DNA from: Candidatus Fermentibacterota bacterium
Lineage (GTDB): Bacteria; Fermentibacterota; Fermentibacteria; Fermentibacterales; JCC-6
Reading direction: 5' to 3'
NCBI GenBank assembly: GCA_014728175.1
Contig: WJMA01000003.1
Span: forward strand, 130,191 to 172,507
DNA length: 42,317 bases
A program made the translations under genes and the position numbers. Positions 31,167 through 33,939 of this stretch are shown piece after piece (the stretch's first letter is position 1; every line of letters starts with the position of its first letter). Below the pieces are notes generated by a model, which worked only from the letters and a program-made list of their open reading frames with translations, searched no databases and was not told the origin of the DNA.

Positions 31167-31194
31167 AACATACGGAGCGCTAAACTCTTTTCAA
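31167..31194 (-). promoter_or_regulatory. Candidate promoter of the glycosyltransferase-aspartokinase-uppP-TPR operon
   Basis: On the minus strand, TTGAAA (31194-31189) and TATGTT (31172-31167) are 16 bases apart, leaving about 35 bases before the ATG at 31125. A small CCGTA-AACA-TACGG palindrome overlaps the -10 box (31162-31175). It lies inside the 5' part of the gap shared with the glycosyltransferase remnant. Confidence 0.45.
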
Positions 31195-31211
31195 AGCAGA
31201 TCCGGCCCATC

Positions 31212-31582
31212 CTTTTGGAAGGCTATTCCCCTCTGGCAATCGCTCCGGGGCGAACACCGACCGTCCGGGCAGCGAGGTCAAGATTCCGGCCAAGTTGTCG
31301 GAGTACGTGCTCGCCGGCCGGCCGGTGCTGGCCATAGCGCCCGACGGCGACCTGACGGAGATGGTGAATCGTCTGCGGGCGGGTTACACGTGTCCGCCCC
31401 GTCCGGAATCCGTCGCCGAGGTGTTGCAGAGGATTTACCGGGACTGGGAGCACTCCTCGCTGGTCGGGCCGGCGGACCTCGACAAGGCAAGGGAAACTCC
31501 GGACATGCGCCGAAGCTGCCTGAGGCTGGGAGAGTTCCTGCGGGAGGTTGCCGGCCGGTCAGGCTCTGAGAAACGGCCCTAG
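31212..31582 (+). pseudogene. Remnant of a glycosyltransferase C-terminus, frameshifted
   Basis: The plus strand reads RPGSEVKIPAKLSEYVLAGRPVLAIAPDGD, which fits the C-terminal block of GT4-type enzymes (GSEVxxPxKLxEYLxAGRPxLAL). It then runs to a TAG at 31580-31582. Upstream the family-like reading (LLEGYSPLAIAPGRT) is in another frame, with the switch near 31,250, and the catalytic N-terminal two thirds are missing. Translation from the only start in frame (TTG 31295) would make a useless 95-residue stub. I call it a decayed gene. Its end overlaps the convergent nuclease-like gene by 24 bases. Confidence 0.65.
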
Positions 31583-31945
31583 ATCGAACATCGCCCGACG
31601 CGGCAGTCCGGTTTTCACCAGCAGCCGCCGAGATCCCAGGAGCTGCTCCAGCCTCTCTCTTGACCTCCTGTAGAACTTGCTCTTGTGGGGCTCGGACGCC
31701 GTGGACAGTAGGCCGGCCCGGAGCTCGGTGCCCGTGGAGTCCTCCCCTTCGCCCAGCTTGCGCTTAAACCCCCTGCAGGTCACCTCCAGCTGCCTGAGGC
31801 CCCGGGAGATGTTCCGACCCTTCAGCTCGACCGGACATATCCTGACCGATCCGTCGAAACGGACCAACAGGACCACCAGATCGCAGACCGGCCGGTTCTT
31901 TTTCAATCCAAGGTAACTACGGAACAGATCTCGGGCCCTATCCAC
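31559..31945 (-). CDS. PD-(D/E)XK nuclease-like protein, start uncertain
   Basis: From GTG 31943-31945 the product has 128 residues. CDLVVLLVRF (Asp22) followed by CPVELKGR (Glu40, Lys42) and then SRGLRQLE (Gln52) fits the PD-(D/E)XK endonuclease core, but this is a by-eye motif call. The frame is open for 49 more codons upstream and that sequence looks like protein (LPIIERLEPC, LDVPRYKDP, GERTYLFAV), up to the TGA that ends the cyclic-nucleotide-binding gene in the same frame. No ATG, GTG or TTG lies in that stretch. An ACG at 32087-32089 sits where a start would be expected. The gene may begin at a non-standard codon, be read through, or be damaged. Confidence 0.6.
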   Translation of the reverse strand: MDRARDLFRSYLGLKKNRPVCDLVVLLVRFDGSVRICPVELKGRNISRGLRQLEVTCRGFKRKLGEGEDSTGTELRAGLLSTASEPHKSKFYRRSRERLEQLLGSRRLLVKTGLPRRAMFDLGPFLRA

Positions 31946-32092
31946 GGCGAACAGGTAGGTCCTTTCCCCCTCGGCCAGATCTACTCGGGCCCCGAGTGCG
32001 CTTCCCGAGGCGGGGTCCTTGTAACGGGGAACGTCCAGAAGGCAGGGCTCCAGACGTTCTATGATGGGAAGGTTCGAGCGGTCAGACGTGGC

Positions 32093-32605
32093 TCAGCTAT
32101 CCTCGGTCTCCTGGCCGATGGAGCCGCGCAGCTCCCCCATCAGCCTTCTTATCTCGTAACGCTCCCGGAGGTCGCTGTCGTCCGAGAGCAGGCTCAGCGT
32201 GGAGTCGGCCTGCGCCAGGCGTCTGGCCAACAACTGGGCTACGGTTATGATCACCCTGACCGCCAGCAGGGCGTTGCTCCGGTAAAGCTCTTCGAAAGAG
32301 TCTCTGGAGAAGCGGAGCAGCTCTCCGGGGGAGGAACAGGTAACGGTCGCCGAGCGACTGTCGGACCTTAGAAAAGACATCTCGCCAAAGACGTCCCCAT
32401 CGGTCAAGGTAGCTATCACCAGCTCCTCACCGGCGGTATCGCTCACCACGAAGCGCCCGCTCCTTATAACGTACAGATCCGTTCCGTCGGAATCCTGATC
32501 TATTATTTCGTCTTCCTCGCCGGCACTCAACGCCTCACAACTGCCGACGAACTCCTCCTCCCGGAGAAATTTCACAGGTTCGAAGAATCCAAGCTCTGAG
32601 CCCAT
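32093..32605 (-). CDS. Stand-alone cyclic-nucleotide-binding domain protein
   Basis: The 170-residue protein is mostly one cNMP-binding (CRP-type) beta-roll, residues about 15-135. The phosphate-binding cassette reads FGEMSFLRSDSRSATV, keeping the Glu and Arg used by ligand-binding members. An amphipathic helix follows (residues about 120-165), but there is no helix-turn-helix, so it is not a CRP-type regulator. It starts at ATG with GGAAAGGAA upstream. It is followed in the same frame by the nuclease-like gene. The ligand could be cAMP or cGMP, or none. Confidence 0.85.
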   Translation of the reverse strand: MGSELGFFEPVKFLREEEFVGSCEALSAGEEDEIIDQDSDGTDLYVIRSGRFVVSDTAGEELVIATLTDGDVFGEMSFLRSDSRSATVTCSSPGELLRFSRDSFEELYRSNALLAVRVIITVAQLLARRLAQADSTLSLLSDDSDLRERYEIRRLMGELRGSIGQETEDS

Positions 32606-32739: not shown

Positions 32740-33939
32740 ATGTCTTATAATCAATACATGAACAATCTAGGGCTCGTTATGGGAACCGCCCTCCTGATCG
32801 GCCAGGCGGCGTACGCCTTGGAAGCCGAACGGCCGATCGGCCGAAACGTGACCGCCGCGGCGCCACTCGACCGGTCCAGGGTGCTTTTCGCTACCTCCAC
32901 GGCAGACTCCCTCTATTTACTGGACCTTATAACCGGCGACAGCGTCCGCTGGCAGGTCGACTGGTCTCCGCAGTCGGAGGGTTGGGGCGGTTTCGGCGAG
33001 GTAGCCCGCATCATTCCCAGCCCCGACGGTAATCACATCTGCATCCTGCGCCGGATGCTTCCCCCGGAGGTGGGGTACGACGTTCCGCTTCCCTCTCCCC
33101 TGGGGGTCCTGCTCTGCCGGGCGGACGGCACGGCCACCAGACTGGTGGCGTTGGCTCGACCCGACTTCAGGTACGGATGCGACTTCACGTCCGACTCCCG
33201 CTACCTGGTGGGCTGCGGCTTCTACAGGATAGTGCCCGACACCGCTCATTATCTGGACTACTTCACGGGCGAGCTCTCCCTCGAGCTAACTCCCGATTTC
33301 AACATGGTAGAGACCGCCACCGGGGCGAAGATAAGGCTGGACGGCCTGGACCTCTCCGGGGAGTACAGGAAGTGCCCTTACTCCGATTCCTACCTGGTGA
33401 AGAGCGGAACCGGAGGCGGGCCCTATCCGGCCCTGGTAAGCATCGATACTACCGACCTGACCATAGAAAGCGTTCTGCACCCGTCCGATAGCTATCCGGG
33501 GATAGACCCCCTCCGATGGGTCCTTCCCGACGCGCTTATCTCGGCCTATCGCAACCGCCGCGGCCTTCTGTACCTCGACGGCCGCTTCGCGCCGATGCCC
33601 CAGGACGGATGGAGGATCTACCGCTGGCTTCCCGACGGCAGTTACCTTCTCAGCACCGACGGCGGAGCAACGGTGATCCATGCCCTGATAAACTGGAGCG
33701 GATACACCATAGAGCGAGCGGTTCCCCAGCCGAACATCGATCCCTACATCGACGACACCCTCATCCCCATGCCCGGTTCGGACACCATGCTCCTGGCTCA
33801 CGACCGGTCTACGGGCGAGCTCACTCTACTGCAGCTGTCCACCGCCTCTCCGCAGGAGGAAGAAGAGACCGGGGGGGGACCCGAAGAGGAAGCGGAGGAG
33901 GAAGAGGAAGAGCCGGAAGCGGAAGCAGGAGAAGAGTAG
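32740..33939 (+). CDS. Secreted propeller-like protein with acidic tail, unknown function
   Basis: A 399-residue product whose N-terminus carries a signal-like segment (LGLVMGTALLIGQAAYA, probable cut after AYA). The mature part resembles a beta-propeller: repeated strand-turn units such as LYLLDLITGDSVRW, RIIPSPDGNHICILR, GVLLCRADGTATRLV and WLPDGSYLLSTDGG. The last 35 residues are almost all Glu and Gly. A perfect TATAAT (32746-32751) overlaps the first codons, so the true start may be the ATG at 32758 or at 32779 (the latter has AGGG upstream). It precedes the TauE-like gene by six bases. I do not recognise its function. Confidence 0.78.
   Translation: MSYNQYMNNLGLVMGTALLIGQAAYALEAERPIGRNVTAAAPLDRSRVLFATSTADSLYLLDLITGDSVRWQVDWSPQSEGWGGFGEVARIIPSPDGNHICILRRMLPPEVGYDVPLPSPLGVLLCRADGTATRLVALARPDFRYGCDFTSDSRYLVGCGFYRIVPDTAHYLDYFTGELSLELTPDFNMVETATGAKIRLDGLDLSGEYRKCPYSDSYLVKSGTGGGPYPALVSIDTTDLTIESVLHPSDSYPGIDPLRWVLPDALISAYRNRRGLLYLDGRFAPMPQDGWRIYRWLPDGSYLLSTDGGATVIHALINWSGYTIERAVPQPNIDPYIDDTLIPMPGSDTMLLAHDRSTGELTLLQLSTASPQEEEETGGGPEEEAEEEEEEPEAEAGEE

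Follow-up and report, generated by a model that had tools for sequence, protein, structure and literature searches.

A cyclic-nucleotide-binding protein gene ending at its usual stop codon and a probable lineage-restricted gene directly downstream in a Candidatus Fermentibacterota genome

The window analyzed here, a stretch of 42,317 nucleotides from a Candidatus Fermentibacterota genome, carries on its minus strand a gene for a cNMP-binding protein and, directly past its TGA stop, a second open frame in the same register (Table 1). The original prediction had put this continuation at 178 codons, and the frame is indeed open, with 177 sense codons and the terminal stop making up that figure. 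Residues of the downstream frame are numbered from the codon after the TGA as residue 1. Its codons 1 to 49 hold no ATG, GTG, or TTG, exactly as had been stated, and the earliest such codon is the GTG at 31945. An ACG near the stop, previously placed three codons beyond it, is present as codon 2, where it begins three bases past the TGA. The sharing of a frame is in itself unremarkable, since one in three tandem gene pairs shares a frame; next to one orthologue of the first gene (L011), the downstream gene likewise lies in the same frame, 36 nt past the stop.

Table 1. The two frames, the stop codon between them, and the candidate start codons of the downstream frame (window coordinates)
Feature	Position	Strand	Remarks
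cNMP-binding protein gene	32093..32605	-	170 aa; ATG start at 32605, TGA stop
TGA stop of the cNMP gene	32093..32095	-	Natural protein end, judged by 13 orthologue ends
Downstream open frame	31559..32092	-	177 sense codons (32092-31562) plus TAG 31561-31559; candidate protein, coding-like, without homologue
ACG, candidate start	32087..32089	-	GAGGA upstream, spacing 9-10 nt; anti-Shine-Dalgarno duplex -5.9 kcal/mol
CTG, alternative candidate start	32036..32038	-	GGAG upstream, spacing 6-8; duplex -5.6 kcal/mol
GTG, first standard start in frame	31943..31945	-	128-aa product; duplex -4.6 kcal/mol, spacing 13, poor Shine-Dalgarno placement

The domain assigned to the first gene product turned out to be real: the protein matched PF00027 with an E value of 2.8e-19 and 69.3 bits, above the gathering score of 27.5. 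The domain spans residues 31-111 and includes the phosphate-binding-cassette motif FGEMSFLRSDSRSATV; the retained FGEM...RSATV fits the known cassette, and cyclic-nucleotide binding is accordingly a prediction from the motif. Proteins with a cNMP domain were present in all 36 of the family genomes searched. Matches above 50% identity numbered 14, namely, the copy in the window itself and 13 orthologues of one sister genus from Candidatus Fermentibacteria, which were about 52 to 61% identical to the window protein and matched it over the whole length, with a shared C-terminal signature, LSLLSDDS.LR.RYEIRRL..EL. All 13 ended close to the window protein's end, at most a few residues away (compare ...LNSEDSEDS before the stop in L006 with ...GQETEDS in the window), and their stop codons were mixed, being TGA in eight, TAG in three, and TAA in two. 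Since the orthologues end there with different stop codons, the TGA is best seen as the family's ordinary terminus, and these aligned ends are strong evidence that it is the normal end of the cNMP protein. The window protein thus resembles the stand-alone PF00027 proteins of Candidatus Aegiribacteria and Fermentibacteria in length, signature, end position, and phosphate-binding cassette, but differs from them in what follows, which is an ORFan in the window and a GGDEF-AAA-TPR protein in most of the relatives. Candidatus Aegiribacteria also carry frames, about 326 aa long, in which two cNMP domains belonging to the same group stand in tandem (G034:C86, G032:C23, G015:C134, and others; L019-L021 and L061-L068).

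That most frequent next gene encodes a GGDEF-AAA ATPase. One orthologue (L052) is followed by a radical-SAM-like gene, and another (L057) by a beta-propeller-like gene, both named by eye, the latter preceding a GGDEF gene. The downstream frame of the window had no match in 101 loci, even at an E value of 1, and when the other window genes chosen for testing were compared with the 16 to 20 kb around eight orthologues, only a sulfatase-like gene matched. The neighbors vary among the orthologues, and the cNMP gene thus retains its own borders. A recurrent pair was observed in L006-L018, in which the cNMP protein precedes a protein of about 1,090 aa that combines GGDEF and AAA ATPase portions with a TPR-like one; its intact GGDEF motif suggests that cNMP and c-di-GMP signaling are linked in this phylum.

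We then examined the coding character of the downstream frame by a codon score, the mean log-odds against out-of-frame and antisense sequence, trained on the window's own genes. The whole frame scored +0.22, its first 49 codons +0.23, and the remainder +0.21, while 312 noncoding open frames averaged -0.31 (standard deviation, 0.29), only a handful of them reaching 0.2 or more. The five competing frames over the same stretch scored from -0.03 to -0.56 and held three to seven stops each, and the GC content by codon position was 0.64/0.48/0.76. As its scores exceed those of nearly all noncoding frames, the downstream frame is more than a chance opening, and the impression that the 49 codons look like real protein was borne out.

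Searches with the downstream frame yielded no homologue among roughly 500 distinct genomes, which comprised two largely overlapping samples of relatives (388 and 386 genomes), 42 genomes of the phylum, and 62 from three other small phyla, nor in plasmids, phages, and viral contigs searched with two query cuts, nor in a pattern scan of 84,980 genomes. The sole weak match outside the family (G346, E value of 0.005) was a basic protein whose C-terminal segment resembles a winged helix and which lacks the motif described below, and was taken as chance. The downstream frame thus encodes a candidate ORFan protein, lineage-restricted and without known relatives in the collections searched. A convergent frame at 31184-31582 on the plus strand resembles the C-terminal portion of a GT4 glycosyltransferase (PAKLSEYVLAGRPVLAIAPDGD...), with a PF13692 match below the cut-off (E value of 0.0099), a coding score of 0.25, and the rest of the gene absent; it is probably a truncated glycosyltransferase remnant, and its overlap with the end of the orphan frame suggests a rearranged site.

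The locus is likely to hold two separate, closely spaced genes, a cNMP receptor with its usual stop codon and a lineage-restricted gene with a probable upstream start. The first gene would give a stand-alone cNMP-binding protein ending at the usual terminus, as the orthologues indicate, and translation of the second would probably begin ahead of GTG 31945, be it through reinitiation close to or at ACG 32089, from CTG 32038, or from a former ATG or GTG that was altered in the strain or in the assembly. Any joint action of the two products would be that of neighboring gene products and not of one chain.

When computed with a slightly different training set, the coding scores were 0.12 from the ACG to the CTG, 0.31 from the CTG to the GTG, and 0.24 from the GTG to the end, the strongest signal residing in the 31 codons from CTG 32038 to GTG 31945. 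The coding signal therefore starts upstream of GTG 31945; it is distinct from around 32038 on and less so from 32089. Since the frame is coding-like throughout, translation probably begins upstream of that GTG, either at the ACG, at the CTG, or at a start lost to a mutation or a base-call error. For comparison with the duplex energies in Table 1, the cNMP gene had an anti-Shine-Dalgarno duplex of -6.1 kcal/mol, and the other genes of the window ranged from -2.5 to -10.7 kcal/mol. The ACG start proposed originally is possible, having a Shine-Dalgarno-like GAGGA upstream, but the CTG and an altered base are candidates as well. Starts at ACG and CTG are very rare. CUG accounts for 0.024% of bacterial start codons and yields 0.86% of the AUG-level product (PMC11497404), so a nonstandard start should not simply be assumed, and a changed base in the draft genome is about as likely.

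Such a loss of the start codon, by a point mutation or a base-calling error, for example, at the ACG, is a subcase of the two-gene explanation and would make the second gene a fresh pseudogene or its missing start a one-base assembly artifact. The ACG lies directly past the stop, a position typical of the starts of coupled genes, and has the GAGGA upstream of it; moreover, the draft genome consists of 67 contigs, which is why a base error is possible. As CTG 32038 could serve as the start instead, with a comparable Shine-Dalgarno score, we hold a lost start to be possible but rather unlikely. It is less likely still that the second gene is genuine but begins at GTG 31945, with the 49 preceding codons as a coding-looking spacer. 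No standard start codon precedes the GTG in the frame, and the predicted core strands with D71 and E89/K91 (see below) fall downstream of it, but the 49 codons are gene-like by their score and lie above nearly all noncoding frames, the Shine-Dalgarno placement is poor, and the start would coincide with the end of a predicted strand. Lower again in probability is the view that no gene lies in the downstream frame and that it is open by chance in a GC-rich region, for which the absence of any homologue or family match everywhere searched and the different gene carried by the orthologues at the corresponding place could be adduced; the 177 codons free of stops, the coding-like codon use, the GC pattern by codon position, and the stops in the rival frames all argue against it.

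In the downstream protein, D71-x17-E89-x-K91 forms a motif, and the segment after it contains a Q. When the motif was defined strictly (D, at least four hydrophobics, a gap, hydrophobics, and [DE]xK), a definition drawn up after the sequence had been seen, it occurred in 17 of 10,000 shuffles (0.17%) and three times in 265,000 aa of real long open reading frames, or about 0.2 per 100 stretches of 177 aa, while a loose form occurred in about half of the shuffles. Single-sequence AlphaFold models, although poor (pLDDT of 35 and 45), predicted a helix and, after it, strands in the segments of D71 and of E89-x-K91; Foldseek with these low-confidence models returned nothing at an E value of 0.001 or below. 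No match to PD-(D/E)XK or another family was obtained in Pfam, PHROGs, PADLOC, or the PDB at E values up to 10, or in NCBIfam at E values up to 1. The original prediction had named a PD-(D/E)XK-like nuclease and had let the matter hinge on a profile match; neither a profile nor a structure match was found, so that this part of the prediction fails on its own terms, and it is the motif that speaks for this assignment. With the D...E-x-K residues on two successive predicted strands, the protein is a tentative candidate for a PD-(D/E)XK-type nuclease, to which we would give somewhat less than an even chance.

The neighborhood was considered with regard to a defense function, since the locus had been likened to effectors of anti-phage signaling systems. 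A Pfam scan of the window genes revealed no cyclase near the cNMP gene; nine class III cyclase domains were found in the genome, all on other contigs, several of them in long frames (780 to 1,384 aa) that also matched an AAA/TPR query. In PADLOC, TIR effector and PycC models matched weakly and within the cNMP part alone, a result to be expected with any cNMP domain. Pycsar systems pair a pyrimidine cyclase with an effector such as PycTIR, and the likeness to them lies in the cNMP-binding domain; here, the Pfam scan of window genes showed no adjacent PycC cyclase, there is no TIR effector, and, unlike PycTIR, the cNMP protein ends at residue 170 and carries no fused effector domain. In the sensor-nuclease effectors Cap4 and Cap5 of CBASS and in the CARF nucleases Can1 and Card1, sensor and nuclease form one chain. 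What the window has in common with them is the concept of coupling a nuclease to a nucleotide sensor, but here there are two genes and no sequence match to these proteins. The neighbors are of a housekeeping type (aspartate kinase, UppP, a glycosyltransferase, and a poly(A) polymerase/tRNA nucleotidyltransferase-like protein), with rpoB and rpoC farther off from the cNMP gene. The divergent neighbor of the cNMP gene at 32740-33939 on the plus strand encodes 399 aa that look propeller-like by eye and matched nothing in Pfam or NCBIfam.

The proposed resemblance to anti-phage effectors was not upheld, as the genes scanned included no cyclase partner and no homologous pair of genes was found elsewhere, and nothing indicates a defense system. 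That the two genes form a cNMP-responsive unit, in which the sensor would control a new small PD-(D/E)XK-type nuclease made by stop-coupled reinitiation at the ACG or CTG, is very improbable. Readthrough of the TGA, by selenocysteine insertion or leaky termination, giving a cNMP-gated nuclease as a single chain, is the least credible reading of all. The two parts do share one frame with a single stop between them, and selenocysteine was considered because the genome encodes SelA (E value of 2.2e-152); against this, the orthologue ends coincide with all three stop codons in use, the frame past the stop encodes the downstream domain in none of the orthologues, and the homologue search that the original prediction had called for yielded no fused homologue in any collection. 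The 50 nt from the UGA gave no SECIS-like hairpin (z of +0.47, with 130 of 200 shuffles folding equally well or better), the 75-nt stretch from the UGA folded worse than its shuffles (z of +2.0), and an Rfam search after the TGA returned no match. Neither of the marks of a selenoprotein, a SECIS hairpin just downstream and a conserved selenocysteine, was found, and selenocysteine was rejected on the orthologue ends and the folding; it is the want of a stable hairpin, together with the mixed stop codons, that leaves readthrough with so small a probability.

The tempting reading of the locus as a sensor-nuclease fusion made by readthrough is thereby removed. What is left is a lead of modest weight: in a phylum that has received little study and is rich in cNMP signaling, a cNMP receptor gene has as its neighbor an orphan gene for a candidate nuclease, which may also use a rare nonstandard start codon.
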